Positions 7,013 through 12,886 of a DNA stretch of 38,453 bases are shown in pieces. Position numbers and translations under genes: made by a program. Origin of the DNA: Hydrogenobaculum sp. (lineage in GTDB: Bacteria > Aquificota > Aquificia > Aquificales > Aquificaceae); assembly GCA_002878215.1 (NCBI GenBank), contig PNJC01000024.1, forward strand, positions 1 to 38,453, in the 5' to 3' direction. Every line of letters starts with the position of its first letter. The stretch's first letter is position 1. Under the pieces are notes generated by a model. That model did no database searches. It was not told the origin of the DNA and saw nothing but the letters and a program-made list of their open reading frames with translations.

Positions 7013-7872
7013 AGGGATATCTCGGTGCCTATTCCTTCTTTCGTAAATACTTCTATGAGTATTGAATGCTTTATTTTACCGTTTATTATATGGACTTTTC
7101 TAACACCTCTCAAAATAGCATCTATGGCAGAGTTTATCTTAGGTATCATACCTTTTGTAATAGTACCATCTTCTATAAGCTCTTTGTATTGGGATTTATG
7201 TATAGAAGATATAGTCTTCCCGTTTTTATCTAAAATTCCATCGGTATCCGTTAAAAATATAAGTTTTTCCGCTCCAAGCTCACAGGCAATTTCTGTAGCC
7301 GCCATATCGGCATTTATATTGTAAATTTGATTTGATTCTGGGTCTATGCCTATTGGTGCTATCACCGGTGTATAGTCATTTTGTATGAGTTCTCTTATCA
7401 ATTTTGTATTTACCGCTTGGACTTTGCCTACAAAACCTATATCCTTGCCTTCGTAATAGTATTTTTTGCATATTAGCAAATTTGCGTCTATACCTGATAA
7501 TCCTATAGCCCCATGCATATTTGACATTTCTTTATTTAGCATAGATACTATGTCTTTGTTTAACTTTCCTATCAGCACCATTCTTGCCACATCAAGAGAG
7601 TCCTTGTCGGTCTTCCTTATACCGTTTATAAATTCTGTTTGTATGTTTAACTTGTCTAACATGTTCGTGATGTCTTTACCACCGCCGTGCACCAACACCA
7701 CTTTTATACCGACATATCTAAGAAGGGCTATGTCCTTTGCAAAGGAATGCTTTAGTTCGTCTTCTTCCATGGCGGCCCCGCCGTATTTGACTACGAAAAC
7801 CTTTCCGTAAAAATCTCTTATAAAAGGTAAAGCTTCCTGAAGTACCAAGGCTTTTTCTAAAAGTTGTTGCAT
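7009..7872 (-). CDS. argB: Acetylglutamate kinase
   Basis: VFVVKYGGAAM, VLVHGGGKDI, TDTDGIL; start trimmed to MQQLLEKALVLQEALPF because the track ORF (7968) extends into lpd. Confidence 0.92.
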   Translation of the reverse strand: MQQLLEKALVLQEALPFIRDFYGKVFVVKYGGAAMEEDELKHSFAKDIALLRYVGIKVVLVHGGGKDITNMLDKLNIQTEFINGIRKTDKDSLDVARMVLIGKLNKDIVSMLNKEMSNMHGAIGLSGIDANLLICKKYYYEGKDIGFVGKVQAVNTKLIRELIQNDYTPVIAPIGIDPESNQIYNINADMAATEIACELGAEKLIFLTDTDGILDKNGKTISSIHKSQYKELIEDGTITKGMIPKINSAIDAILRGVRKVHIINGKIKHSILIEVFTKEGIGTEISL

Positions 7873-7882
7873 AATAAAAGCC

Positions 7883-9244
7883 TCATAAAAGTTTTTTCTG
7901 CACAGACATAATAACAGTTTCAGATAAAGAAGGGTGAGTATACATACACCTTGATAAAAACTCCACATCTTTCCCGGCTTTTACCACGTGCACTACTTGA
8001 TGAAGCAGTTCTCCGGCTTGTGGTCCCAATATCTCTGCTCCTAAAATCTCTTTTGTGTTGGCATCGTATATTACCTTTGCGTACCCTTCGGCTTCGTCGT
8101 CTATGATAGCTTTTGGGTTTTTAACGAAAGTGGCTGTGCCCACTTCATAATCTAGCTCCATATCCTCAGCTTGGTCTATGTTTATACCAAAAGATGCAAT
8201 TTCGTAAGCTGAGTATATTATCTTTGGTACTATCCTGTAATCTAACTTTTCCGCATCGTTGTTTATATGGGCTACAGCGGTTCTTCCTTCATACATAGAT
8301 TTATGAGCAAGCATCAAAGGCGATGTTATGTCTCCGCAGGCGTATATATGGTTTACAGATGTTTTTGCGTACTCGTCAATTTTTACATACCCTTTCTCTG
8401 TAAGAGCTATATCTGTATTTTCTATGCCTATGTCTTTTGTGTTTGGAGCCCTCCCAACAGCTTCCAATATAATATCATATTCTAAAACGGTACCATCTTT
8501 TAAAATGGCTTTTCTTTTGCCGTCTTCTTCTATAAGATTTTCTATAGTATTTGAAGTAAATATCTTTACACCTAAGTTTTTAAGCTTTTTGCTAAGATAA
8601 GAGGCGCTATCTTCTGATTCTGAAGGTATTATTCTCCTTGAAATATCTACCAAATACACATCTATATCGTACATTCTAAATATGTATGCGAACTCTACGC
8701 CCACTACACCAGCCCCTACTATAAGAACCGATTTTGGTTTTTCTGTAAGTCCCCAGATGGTATCTGTGTTGTATATTTTAAACTTTGTTTTATCGTAGTG
8801 AAGTATGCTAACAACAGAAGAACCGGTGGAAAGAAGTATGTATTTGCCTTTTACTACATCTCCTTTTGTAGTTTCTATGGTGTTGTTGTCTTTAAATCTA
8901 CCTTTTCCATAATATATATCCACTTTTAAGCTTTTAGCATAAGCTTTGAAACTCTCTCTTATATCGGAGACAGCGTTGTCTCGGTTTTCTTTAAAAGCAA
9001 GCCAGTCTATATCTTGGCTGTTTATTTTTATGCCGTATTTTATGCCCCTTGAAAGATGCTCCATGAGTTTAGCACCAAATCTCATATATTTAGATGGTAT
9101 GCAACCTCTGTTTAGACAATTACCACCTATGGTTTTCTCAGATATGTCTATCATAGCTACATGCATGCCGTATCTTTTGGCGTGTAACATAGCTTCGTAG
9201 CCGCCAGAGCCTGCTCCAAAAATAACTATGTCATATTCCTTCAT
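7883..9244 (-). CDS. lpd: Dihydrolipoamide dehydrogenase
   Basis: GAGSGGYEA, GGNCLNRGCIPSK redox motif, YTHPSLSE C-terminus. Confidence 0.9.
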   Translation of the reverse strand: MKEYDIVIFGAGSGGYEAMLHAKRYGMHVAMIDISEKTIGGNCLNRGCIPSKYMRFGAKLMEHLSRGIKYGIKINSQDIDWLAFKENRDNAVSDIRESFKAYAKSLKVDIYYGKGRFKDNNTIETTKGDVVKGKYILLSTGSSVVSILHYDKTKFKIYNTDTIWGLTEKPKSVLIVGAGVVGVEFAYIFRMYDIDVYLVDISRRIIPSESEDSASYLSKKLKNLGVKIFTSNTIENLIEEDGKRKAILKDGTVLEYDIILEAVGRAPNTKDIGIENTDIALTEKGYVKIDEYAKTSVNHIYACGDITSPLMLAHKSMYEGRTAVAHINNDAEKLDYRIVPKIIYSAYEIASFGINIDQAEDMELDYEVGTATFVKNPKAIIDDEAEGYAKVIYDANTKEILGAEILGPQAGELLHQVVHVVKAGKDVEFLSRCMYTHPSLSETVIMSVQKKLL

Positions 9245-9494
9245 CTTCCTTGCTCCTATCCTTTTTGCTATTTTTAATTTTATTCTTTCTTCTTTCTTTG
9301 TAAACCTCTTGTCTTATGTCCTTAATCAATTTTTTATATTTGTAGAATACGCCCGGTACTTTTATTGGCAAGTGGTAATATTTTTCAAGCATAAGCATAA
9401 TATCTTCCGTGGTTAAATATTTTTTATTGGTGATAAGGGTTTTTATGTATTTATATATCCTTGAGTCTTTTTTCACTATGTTACCACTACGCAC
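9231..9494 (-). CDS. Small basic hypothetical protein
   Basis: 87-aa ORF overlapping neighbours on both sides in an operon-like array; no recognised family. Confidence 0.6.
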   Translation of the reverse strand: MRSGNIVKKDSRIYKYIKTLITNKKYLTTEDIMLMLEKYYHLPIKVPGVFYKYKKLIKDIRQEVYKERRKNKIKNSKKDRSKEDEGI

Positions 9495-10663
9495 TTGTGA
9501 TGATTTATGTATGTTTTATATACGTCTTCTATCTCTTTTTTTGTGACTGATTTTATAAGATTTTCGTATTCAAATATCGTATCCTTGCCAAGTCCCATAA
9601 GTTCAAAATACCCCATCGCATAGGATTTGCTAAATCTGGTTTGATGCTCCAAAGAAAAGTTTCCTATAAGCTTTTGTTTTGCTAAGTCTATGTCTTCTTC
9701 TTTTATGTTTAGATTTTTTATTATATCGTTTAAATCTTTTAAAGCGTTGTCTGATTTTTCTATAGAAGTACCTATGTATGCTATCATTTTAGAGCAATAG
9801 AGATTAGTAGAAACAGAACTGTTTACTGCATAAGCATAACCTTTTTCTTCTCTTAAAATCTTAAAAAGTATAGAACTCATTCCATTTCCCAATATTGCAT
9901 TTAGCACTTTAAAAGCAAAATACTCTTTTTTATCCTTTGATAGTGGTGCATCGTAACCACACATAATACTAGCCTGAGCCCCGCCTCTTTTTATGCTGAT
10001 AACCTCATCTTTGTCTACTTTAGGACAGATGTTTATAGATGGTGTTTCTTGGTTTTTAGAAAAAATATCCAATACGCTTTTTATGGTTTCAATGTCTTTG
10101 TCTTCTAAATTATCCGCTACAACGCTTGCAACATAATCTTTTTTTAATATATCAAAATATCTTTCCCGAACATCTTTTACCGATATACTTTTAACGCTCT
10201 CTTCGGTGCCTAAGCTTGATATCTCATAAGGAGTATTTTTATACAATATTTTTCTTAAATTGTCAAAAGCAAAATCAAAAGGCCTCTCTTTTCTTGATTT
10301 TAAAGTAGATAATACGTTTTGCTTTTCTATTTCCAAGGTTTCTTCTTCAAATACGCTGTTTGTAAGCACATCTTTTAAAGTATCCATAGATTCTTTTATA
10401 TTGGCTTTTTTAGTAGCTATTGATATTGTTATAAAATCTCCGTAGGTTTTAAATCTTAGAAATCCGCCAACACTTTCAAATACTTCGTTTATCTCCTGGG
10501 AAGTTTTGGAAGTTGTTTTCTTTCCCATTAGTGATGTGGTAACGTTTGTAAGGCCTTTTATTGGTTCGTTGACTGCACCATCTTTTAAAAATATGTTTAT
10601 AGCCACTATATCAAAATCAGATTTTGTGTTATGGTATATAAATTTTTCCATATTTAACTCCAA
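9476..10663 (-). CDS. M16-family peptidase homolog lacking HxxEH (non-catalytic subunit type)
   Basis: M16 fold signatures (ASIMCGYDAPL, AILGNGMSSILFKILREEKGYAYAVNSSVS) but the HxxEH position reads GLTNVTTSLMGKKT; start may be 10651. Confidence 0.8.
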   Translation of the reverse strand: MELNMEKFIYHNTKSDFDIVAINIFLKDGAVNEPIKGLTNVTTSLMGKKTTSKTSQEINEVFESVGGFLRFKTYGDFITISIATKKANIKESMDTLKDVLTNSVFEEETLEIEKQNVLSTLKSRKERPFDFAFDNLRKILYKNTPYEISSLGTEESVKSISVKDVRERYFDILKKDYVASVVADNLEDKDIETIKSVLDIFSKNQETPSINICPKVDKDEVISIKRGGAQASIMCGYDAPLSKDKKEYFAFKVLNAILGNGMSSILFKILREEKGYAYAVNSSVSTNLYCSKMIAYIGTSIEKSDNALKDLNDIIKNLNIKEEDIDLAKQKLIGNFSLEHQTRFSKSYAMGYFELMGLGKDTIFEYENLIKSVTKKEIEDVYKTYINHHKCVVVT

Positions 10664-11703
10664 GAATCATCTTGATTTGTATCTATATCGTTACCCCAAT
10701 CATCTCCACCGGCAAAATCTATGTTGTTATCTGTATCTTGATTTATCATATCTTGGTTATCTATAGGGGGTTCGTTGTAATAGTTGTTTTCCACGATAGT
10801 GGGCCCCATGCCAAAGCCTCCACCAAAACCGCCGCTAAATATAGACCCCATCAAAGAGCCCATTGCCATCATGCCAAGTAAATCCATAAAAGACATTCCA
10901 CCACCCATCATACCAGGATTTATGGGTGTTTGATTTTGGTAGTTTGGTTGAGTGTTCATGTTTTGTAGATTTTTTAAATCATCGTGGGTTTCATAAGTAC
11001 TTTTAACGCCTGTAGCCACTTCTTTTAGTTTGTCTTTGAGATTTTCAAAATAAACGTACGCTCCTTGTATATCGGCTACTTCGTTGTTTTTAAGCTTTTG
11101 AAGTAAATCTATCATGTTTTTTCTTATCTCATCCAATTCGTTTAGCCTATTTGAAAGGTCTTTTTTGGCTGGATCTTCGTCTTTCAAAGATACCAAATCA
11201 ATAGATAATTTAGTTTTAACCTTTTCAATATTCTCAAGATACAAAGTAAGCTCTTGCATAAGCTTCGTTTTTATATCTTCTTTGTTTTTGTTCGTAAGCT
11301 TGTTTGACATGTATAAAAATATAGCCCCCACTATCAGTAAACCACCTATTAAGAAAAATATCATAGCACCTCCAAAGGTACCCTTTTTGACTTTGATTGA
11401 TTTTTGTAAATCTCTCTCGTAATTTTTTAAATAACCTTTATGGGCAAAGGATTCTGACGGGTCAAGCTTTTTGGCTACGTTTAGCTCTTGTAAAGCTTTT
11501 TGATCTTTGCCTTCAAGGTAATACACCTGAGATAACATATAATGGGCTTTAGCAGAGTTTGGGTCTTTTTGTAACACCTCTTTCAAAAGCATTTCGGCTT
11601 TGTGATAGTGCCCAGCTTGTACTTCTTTGGCTATATCGGAAGGGGTTGGCAGTGCTAAAGCTAAGCTAAACCACATTAGAAGGAATATTATATATTTTTT
11701 CAT
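10654..11703 (-). CDS. TPR membrane protein with Gly/Met-rich and Asp/Asn-rich C-terminal tail
   Basis: Signal peptide; TPR-like repeats; TM GGAMIFFLIGGLLIVGAIFLYM; GGMMGGGMSFMDLLGMMAMGSLMGSIFSGGFGGGFGMG tail. Confidence 0.75.
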   Translation of the reverse strand: MKKYIIFLLMWFSLALALPTPSDIAKEVQAGHYHKAEMLLKEVLQKDPNSAKAHYMLSQVYYLEGKDQKALQELNVAKKLDPSESFAHKGYLKNYERDLQKSIKVKKGTFGGAMIFFLIGGLLIVGAIFLYMSNKLTNKNKEDIKTKLMQELTLYLENIEKVKTKLSIDLVSLKDEDPAKKDLSNRLNELDEIRKNMIDLLQKLKNNEVADIQGAYVYFENLKDKLKEVATGVKSTYETHDDLKNLQNMNTQPNYQNQTPINPGMMGGGMSFMDLLGMMAMGSLMGSIFSGGFGGGFGMGPTIVENNYYNEPPIDNQDMINQDTDNNIDFAGGDDWGNDIDTNQDDSWS

Positions 11704-11843
11704 ATATTAAGCCTTTTTCTTCCTATGTTAAAAGCCAAAAACACCGCAAACAAAAACGCCCCAAGCATAAGAAATCCCATAATCTTCCATACTATTATAC
11801 CTATTACAAGCACAATGGCTAGCAAAATAGCTTGCCCTATCAT
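11700..11843 (-). CDS. Small (47 aa) membrane protein, not in ORF track
   Basis: Own translation: MIGQAILLAIVLVIGIIVWKIMGFLMLGAFLFAVFLAFNIGRKRLNI; start overlaps pspA stop (ATGA), stop overlaps TPR gene start (ATGA). Confidence 0.72.
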   Translation of the reverse strand: MIGQAILLAIVLVIGIIVWKIMGFLMLGAFLFAVFLAFNIGRKRLNI

Positions 11844-12514
11844 TTTAATCCCATCTCTTTCTTGAGGGCTTCGAGTTTCTCGTCTACTGTGCTTGTTTTT
11901 TCAAGGTTTTCAAATTCTTTTTCTATATCGGTACCAGTTTGTTCATCTTCTATGTTTTTCATAGCCTTAGCTCTTGCCTCTTCTTTTAGGACTTTTTCTT
12001 CTACTGAATCAAGCTTTTCTTTTGCATGAGAGTCCCCTATACCAGTGGTTATTTCGGAAGCCTTCTCTTGGGCTTTTGCCACTTCGTACCTTGTGCTTAG
12101 GATATCTGCTTTTGATTCTAATTCTTGTTTTTTGTTTTTTAGCTCTTGTATTTTGGCTTTTAGCTCATTTATAGAAGGCTCTAAAGCTTCAATCTGCTTT
12201 TGATAAACATCTGCTTGCTTTTTAGCTTCTTCTTCTTGCTCTAAAGCTTTTTTTGCCAAATCTTCTCTACCCGCTTGAAGGGCTTTTTTGGCTTTTTCGT
12301 GCCAATCGTTAGCCTCTTCTTCAAATTGGGCTTTTTTTTGCTTTAAAAGCTCGTATTCGGCCATTACGTTTACCATGTTGGCGTTGGCTTTTTCTATCTG
12401 CTCTTGTAAATCCCTTATCACTTGCCTTGCGGTTCTTCCGGGCTCTGACGCTTTATCAAGAGCATCGTTTAAAGCACCTTTAATTTGGGTCATTAGATTT
12501 TCTAAAAAGCTCAT
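11840..12514 (-). CDS. pspA: PspA/IM30 family protein
   Basis: Coiled coil: MSFLENLMTQIKGALNDALDKASEPGRTARQVIRDLQEQIEKANANMVNVMAEYELLKQ... Confidence 0.85.
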   Translation of the reverse strand: MSFLENLMTQIKGALNDALDKASEPGRTARQVIRDLQEQIEKANANMVNVMAEYELLKQKKAQFEEEANDWHEKAKKALQAGREDLAKKALEQEEEAKKQADVYQKQIEALEPSINELKAKIQELKNKKQELESKADILSTRYEVAKAQEKASEITTGIGDSHAKEKLDSVEEKVLKEEARAKAMKNIEDEQTGTDIEKEFENLEKTSTVDEKLEALKKEMGLK

Positions 12515-12568
12515 AAACTAACCTCCTCTTTATTATAATCTATATCCCCTAAATAAAATATCTGTGAG

Positions 12569-12886
12569 TTATAGAAAACTTTTTAACCTTTCTTTTATAA
12601 ACTCTTTTGGTATAACACCGCTTATATTCCCATTTATGTTGAAAGTCCTACAAGAGTAAGATATTTGGTCTGGGGCCTTGCCTGTGTAGATATCTATGCC
12701 GTTTACATATATAGACGGTGAGCCCATAAACTTTACTTTTTGAGCAGTTTCTAGATCTTTTACATCTATGCTGTTTATGGGTATGTTTATGTTTAGCTCT
12801 TTCAAAGCTTCTAAAAGATTTTGGTATGTGGGTTCAGAGTTTGGGCAACCCTGAAAGAATAAAAACTCTATTTTTTCTATATTCAT
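12569..12886 (-). CDS. Thioredoxin-like small protein (DF-family (seleno)protein / alkylmercury-lyase-like)
   Basis: IEFLFFQGCPNSEPTYQNL...VKFMGSPSIYVNGIDI...SYSCRTF. Confidence 0.65.
   Translation of the reverse strand: MNIEKIEFLFFQGCPNSEPTYQNLLEALKELNINIPINSIDVKDLETAQKVKFMGSPSIYVNGIDIYTGKAPDQISYSCRTFNINGNISGVIPKEFIKERLKSFL

Follow-up and report, generated by a model that had tools for sequence, protein, structure and literature searches.

The window (the whole 38,453-nucleotide stretch of Hydrogenobaculum DNA analysed here) contains a run of four minus-strand genes headed by pspA, with a conserved sequence block immediately upstream:

12532..12567, minus strand: conserved block TCACA..TTTTATT..TTATAAT, found in five of five species though the upstream gene differs in one of them (G031); a possible promoter or control element, unproven.
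11840..12514 (read 12514-11840), minus strand: pspA, 224 aa, PspA/IM30 family (PF04012), bacterial ESCRT-III-like.
11700..11843, minus strand: 47-aa membrane ORF (sORF) between pspA and the TPR gene.
10654..11703, minus strand: TPR membrane protein, 349 aa, TPR_19 at 2e-09, a candidate membrane receptor for PspA.
9476..10663, minus strand: M16 homologue, TTG start, 395 aa, PF00675 and PF05193, an inactive M16B subunit.

The original prediction put these genes forward as a candidate envelope-maintenance operon, noting that they are consecutive and overlap at every junction. The overlaps are real (4, 4 and 10 nt from pspA to M16), and each of the five Hydrogenobaculum genomes (G000 and G030-G033) has the same ones. 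The M16 start at the overlap with the TPR gene is non-ATG (TTG), and the most divergent genome, G031, has GTG at this position with no ATG nearby, which supports the 10-nt overlap. The order of genes from pspA to an scpA-like gene is identical in 5/5 genomes, so that conservation of order holds among these relatives; the conserved array 3′ of the TPR gene (M16, o87, lpd, argB-like, mobB-like and scpA-like) is functionally mixed. The genes 5′ of pspA differ, with a thioredoxin-like gene present in four genomes and absent from G031, and with G032 retaining that gene only; because of this variation, pspA is placed at the left edge of the conserved block. By a simple gene call, the window has 36 same-strand junctions; in 22 of them the genes touch or overlap, and in 28 they lie within 10 nt of each other. 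Overlap is thus a style of the Hydrogenobaculum genome and weak evidence of a functional unit.

The upstream block occurs once in the genome, and this single occurrence excludes it as a regulon signature. Its TATAAT hexamer (12537-12532), earlier read as a −10 element of pspA, is conserved in 5/5 genomes and is followed by the SD at 12526-12522. A transcription start 6–7 nt past the hexamer would fall about inside the SD, and the promoter scan matched no −35 partner and returned a number of sites equal to chance expectation; a promoter is therefore not established. The noted absence of a sigma-54 box upstream of pspA was confirmed, the best candidate agreeing at 6 of 12 positions against a mean of 7 in shuffled sequence.

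PspA matches PF04012 over its whole length at 124.3 bits (cut-off 33.9; 7e-36), which places it in the PspA/IM30 family, and a profile search with the five orthologues hit PspA/Vipp1 chains of solved structure (8qbw, 4.5e-24, residues 3-221). Judged by these matches, the Hydrogenobaculum protein is a normal PspA/IM30 protein, for which the similarity to solved PspA/Vipp1 assemblies predicts ESCRT-III-like polymerisation on membranes. Its distribution is narrow. PF04012 is above cut-off in 11 of 136 Aquificota genomes, belonging to 2 of 30 genera, which rules out PspA as an Aquificota-wide trait, and the TPR protein is found in 5 of the 136, exactly those with the Hydrogenobaculum-type (g1) PspA, all other matches being to generic TPR segments. 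Conservation across the Aquificales, proposed as a check on the operon, thus fails, with the TPR protein in one genus there and PspA in two of the 30. In the second genus (g2), PspA is present in 6/7 genomes, is ∼30% identical to the Hydrogenobaculum protein and lies in the known CesT/Tir-PspA-DUF4178-lipoprotein-DUF350-spermidine-synthase operon, the second group recognised by Ravi et al. (2024; PMC11237479). None of the partner genes of that operon occurs at the Hydrogenobaculum locus; in particular, no CesT/Tir (YjfI/YbjN-like) gene was found beside pspA in either the four genomes with the thioredoxin-like gene or in G031. A joint clade of both Aquificota genera in the PspA tree is not rejected by the AU test (p 0.129), but a single system common to the g1 and g2 proteins was rejected because their gene contexts differ.

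The 47-aa ORF is present at the same place in 5/5 congeners, with 4-nt overlaps on both sides and lengths of 47, 47, 47, 47 and 48 aa. Its dN/dS is 0.13-0.38 in the usable pairs (0.85 in a near-identical pair, with two further pairs saturated), which indicates that it is under purifying selection. The conservation that the original prediction asked of this sORF is therefore present, and the ORF very probably encodes a real protein. In the five-genome alignment, almost every residue is hydrophobic; the exceptions include K20, invariant and in mid-sequence, and a C-terminal GRKR that is predicted to be cytoplasmic by the positive-inside rule. The AF2 model (pLDDT 90) is a single helix over residues 2-45, i.e. 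one predicted helix of 44 residues, although the polar centre (HD in G031) would also allow a short hairpin. The ORF has no match above cut-off among the Pfam and NCBIfam models.

The TPR protein begins with a signal peptide and two TPRs and crosses the membrane once (transmembrane segment, TM); beyond this come long helices, then a hydrophobic stretch rich in Gly and Met, and finally an acidic tail that contains Trp:

11653..11703, minus strand: signal peptide, residues 1-17, ALA/LPTPSD, from sequence and hydropathy, ending in AxA.
11452..11622, minus strand: two TPRs, residues 28-84; Pfam TPR_19 at 28-83, AF2 helices at 33-46, 51-63 and 67-80.
11305..11373, minus strand: transmembrane segment, residues 111-133, hydropathy peak 2.62.
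10963..11286, minus strand: predicted cytoplasmic helical region, residues 140-247, from AF2 helices; among the slowest-evolving parts.
10804..10920, minus strand: Gly/Met-rich hydrophobic stretch, residues 262-300; counterpart in Paraburkholderia fungorum GGWLGGMGGLGSLVTGMLLG.
10657..10803, minus strand: acidic tail ending DIDTNQDDSWS; P. fungorum end EIDTGGGDDWSNGS, Cupriavidus end TFDGGTGGDW.

Given the N-terminal signal peptide, the TPRs would lie outside the cytoplasm and the helices and tail inside. Between G000 and G031, dN is lowest in the helices (residues 134-247, 0.13) and rises through the Gly/Met stretch (0.16) and the TPRs (0.28) to the tail (0.45) and the signal peptide (0.50), compared with 0.16 for the whole of PspA; the predicted cytoplasmic helices are thus as constrained as PspA itself. 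When G000 is compared with its three close species, dN in the Gly/Met stretch (residues 266-300) is 0.00-0.02, against 0.16 in the comparison with G031. The AF2 model of the whole TPR protein is poor (pLDDT 56).

As a search of genome contigs with PspA returned two Hydrogenobaculum-type records only, relatives from other phyla were taken from plasmids. Among 72,556 plasmid records, the best match to the window PspA is from P. fungorum (E 6e-32), a soil bacterium, in which the next annotated gene after pspA encodes a tetratricopeptide repeat protein and the gene beyond is unrelated. This TPR protein has the same plan (signal peptide, an LPGASD start, two TPRs, TM, helices, the stretch GGWLGGMGGLGSLVTGMLLG and the end EIDTGGGDDWSNGS), its C-terminal end being a near-identical motif to DIDTNQDDSWS of Hydrogenobaculum. 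Here pspA and the TPR gene are 139 nt apart, and the 47-aa ORF is absent. The window TPR protein matches 9 of the 72,556 plasmid records, all from Burkholderiaceae (four P. fungorum, three Cupriavidus and two Burkholderia contaminans) and among them the gene after pspA in P. fungorum, and in the reverse search the P. fungorum protein finds one gene per Hydrogenobaculum genome, namely the psp-linked one. The relatives likewise have AxA followed by an L/M-P..S/A-D start. Statistical similarity between the Hydrogenobaculum and P. fungorum proteins is carried by the signal peptide and TPRs (∼80-100 aa; hhalign 7e-14, HMMER 3.6e-17), and the tail profiles match marginally (E 0.0017 as a single comparison). 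Pairwise profile comparison detected no statistical similarity in the helices, for which the likeness is one of layout. The C-terminal part alone gave zero matches on plasmids, as did the Hydrogenobaculum and P. fungorum TPR proteins on viral contigs. A third TPR protein of the same plan is found on a plasmid of Cupriavidus metallidurans, away from pspA. The B. contaminans plasmid protein (SP-TPR-TM, lacking the tail and a pspA neighbour) was set aside. The PspA tree places P. fungorum as sister to the Hydrogenobaculum proteins with support of 93/90, below the starred level, a grouping that is suggestive but not conclusive. No adjoining TPR gene was seen in the annotated pspA neighbourhoods of Citrobacter, Agrobacterium, Serratia, Paenibacillus, Sphingomonas, Arthrobacter and Nostoc. 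Across the 136 Aquificota genomes and the annotated plasmid neighbourhoods examined, a protein with the order SP-TPR-TM-helical-Gly-rich-acidic-tail follows pspA in two lineages, Hydrogenobaculum (with the 47-aa ORF between) and P. fungorum. The proposal that the 47-aa and TPR proteins are PspA partners is strengthened by their genus-strict conservation, by co-occurrence and by the independent P. fungorum pair; the description of both as lineage-specific holds for the 47-aa ORF only, the TPR protein having relatives in P. fungorum and Cupriavidus.

In other bacteria, PspA is recruited by membrane proteins such as PspB/PspC, LiaI and YdjG/YdjH, the last two being encoded with pspA in Bacillus subtilis, where they anchor or recruit it (PMC8581546). 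In keeping with the earlier remark that none of the usual partners is recognisable at this locus, neither PspB nor PspC (with a positive Escherichia coli control) nor a TPM domain (PF04536) was matched in any of the five genomes. One Band-7 gene is present in Hydrogenobaculum, elsewhere than at the psp locus. Like the B. subtilis pspA-ydjGHI operon (TPM protein YdjH, YdjG and SPFH protein YdjI), the locus encodes PspA together with membrane proteins, but it has a TPR protein in the place of the TPM protein and no SPFH gene in the operon, and the genus has no TPM gene. The pairing of a small membrane protein with a PspA homologue recalls LiaI-LiaH of Bacillus, although the 47-aa ORF is without a Pfam or NCBIfam assignment and Hydrogenobaculum PspA, at 47 bits on the LiaH model, falls far short of its cut-off of 380. 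With the E. coli PspA-PspB-PspC system, the locus has in common the PspA fold and the expectation of membrane partners, whereas it differs in the absence of PspB, PspC and a sigma-54 site and in a PspA that is 22% identical. The PspA-TPR pairing is absent from the main text of the 2024 PSP survey (PMC11237479), in which the sole mention of TPR concerns a protein beside Vps4-like ATPases, and from that of the 2022 phyletic survey. It would seem to be an overlooked form of a stress system that is already known, rather than a peculiarity of one genus.

In the absence of PspB, PspC and TPM, another receptor for PspA is to be expected. The reading that we favour, and which we hold to be somewhat more probable than its negation, is a PSP-type membrane-maintenance module in which PspA is provided with membrane docking proteins of its own, the TPR protein as receptor and the 47-aa protein as accessory anchor. 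In such a module, the TPR domain would face the periplasm and report on the state of the envelope, and the cytoplasmic helices and tail would bind PspA and bring it to the damaged inner membrane, where PspA may polymerise and limit proton leakage; by analogy with LiaI or PspB for other PspA proteins, the 47-aa protein would serve as an additional membrane anchor. PspA has been linked to limiting proton leakage, and Hydrogenobaculum is an acid-loving, thermophilic genus of hot springs, for which such a need is plausible; an organism of this kind is a natural setting in which to study the protection of the proton gradient by PspA. The pspA-TPR pair may be a recurring unit, probably acquired by Hydrogenobaculum. 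A broader and more tentative proposal, to which we give slightly less than even weight, is that the SP-TPR-TM-helical-Gly/Met-acidic-tail family serves one PspA clade as a general type of membrane receptor not described before, replacing PspB/C, TPM or SPFH partners and acting in Hydrogenobaculum with the 47-aa protein. The membrane receptor of PspA varies by lineage, and a recurring TPR receptor whose conserved part is predicted to be cytoplasmic would be a defined and testable partner. For PspA lacking an associated AAA ATPase, the main text of the 2024 survey states that the regulation of assembly is unknown (PMC11237479).

The strongest alternative attributes the co-location to genome compactness: PspA would work without partners, and the TPR protein and the 47-aa protein would each have a separate envelope function, e.g. 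in the assembly of an envelope complex. TPR-TM proteins serve many envelope machines, and the frequency of touching or overlapping junctions in the window, together with the unrelated genes M16, o87, lpd, argB, mobB and scpA in the same conserved array, speaks in its favour. In the favoured reading, too, the downstream M16, o87 and lpd are compaction neighbours of the psp genes, unrelated to the system (for M16, probably so); o87 is a conserved small protein of the Aquificaceae, present in 62 of the 136 Aquificota genomes, and elsewhere lies apart from M16 (e.g. in G042, with o87 on contig 15 and M16 on contig 7). Against compactness as the explanation for the TPR gene stand its adjacency to pspA in P. 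fungorum, with an unrelated gene coming next, the reciprocal specificity of the two TPR proteins in searches, and the joint presence or absence of Hydrogenobaculum-type PspA and the TPR protein across the Aquificota. We regard compactness alone as the less likely account.

Considerably less probable is a role of the TPR or the 47-aa protein as a negative regulator, keeping PspA tethered to the membrane while cells are free of stress, in the manner of the PspB/PspC signalling arm, rather than as a receptor for repair. Partners of the PspB/PspC type perform both signalling and recruitment, and since the locus shows neither a pspF gene nor a sigma-54 site, control of PspA could be post-translational. 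However, it also shows no transcription factor on which PspA could act, and the evidence fits the regulatory and the docking roles alike.

The proposed docking module would consist of PspA, the TPR protein and the 47-aa protein, with the fourth gene probably standing outside it. As regards the four-gene operon first proposed as a single system, the two candidate partners of PspA have gained support, whereas M16, an old Aquificota gene, is probably not part of it. The label pseudo-M16 was apt, as the HxxEH motif is replaced (TNVTT) and the protein still carries the R..Y motif typical of inactive subunits; with an active partner elsewhere in the genome, these are the features of an M16B inactive subunit. 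The protein resembles the classical inactive subunit of M16B heterodimeric zinc peptidases (YmxG/YfmF type; PDB 3amj, 3hdi), differing in that it is split from its active partner and has no signal peptide. An orthologue is found in 129 of the 136 Aquificota genomes. M16 is far more widespread in the phylum than psp, and rearrangement or genome compaction most likely brought the two together. The same wide occurrence, often beside an active partner and in secreted form, led us to reject M16 as a component of the psp system, in which it should not be counted merely on grounds of overlap; it is probably a bystander, the old inactive half of the Aquificota M16 pair. It is improbable that the psp operon took in an inactive M16 which then shed its signal peptide and became a cytoplasmic regulator of PspA or its partners. 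The Hydrogenobaculum pair is indeed split, with neither half bearing the signal peptide seen in most sampled Aquificaceae relatives. However, the protein still has R..Y, like any ordinary inactive subunit, and all 5/5 genomes encode the active partner at a different locus (which makes an ordinary heterodimer formed in trans the simpler explanation); no M16 lies beside pspA in P. fungorum or the g2 genomes; and G105 and G132, sampled from families f3 and f5, also have no signal peptide, yet have no psp. In several of the Aquificaceae regions examined, the inactive M16 follows an HxxEH-bearing M16 in tandem (G042, G035, G050, G057, G023 and G026), and in G058 the active and inactive halves are fused in one frame, the N-termini of these tandem and fused genes having the appearance of signal peptides.

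Along the pspA-lpd region, the closest relative of the window's genome alternates between three other Hydrogenobaculum-group genomes, G033, G030 and G032, every few hundred bases (window 7800-12600 compared with L072-L075), and the 47-aa membrane ORF differs from that of G030 by a synonymous divergence of 0.03 versus 0.7-0.8 for the flanking genes. This blockwise pattern marks the region, as judged from sequence comparison, as a recombination mosaic among Hydrogenobaculum species. The M16 gene of this array is overlapped by a small ORF:

9231-9494, - strand: o87, a 75-87-aa protein, mostly 55-72% identical across other Aquificaceae

The o87 protein, for which comparison with Pfam returned no family above cut-off, is found in 62 of the 136 Aquificota genomes and its conservation exceeds that of the M16 gene.

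In Hydrogenobaculum, both the active (L133:5104-6351) and inactive (window 9476-10663) M16 halves are devoid of the signal peptide that is present on their tandemly arranged relatives in most of the other Aquificaceae sampled, which suggests that the pair changed compartment in this genus. In genus g10, active and inactive M16 are fused in one 832-aa reading frame (L121:3687-6185).

The TPR protein copy on a Cupriavidus campinensis plasmid (L141:3995-4852) carries a frameshift, and its Gly-rich tail runs on in a different frame. Conjugative plasmids from Citrobacter, Agrobacterium and Serratia carry a pspA that overlaps the gene for a ~160-170-aa protein with an N-terminal TM segment (L135:6675-7154; L138:5671-6180), and a gene for a multi-TM protein follows; the two products are possibly another plasmid-borne set of PspA partners. 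A PspA homologue is also encoded at MT839532.1:2206-2883, a 4.2-kb unannotated record from human faeces that may be a bacterial contig despite its 'Bacteriophage sp.' label.
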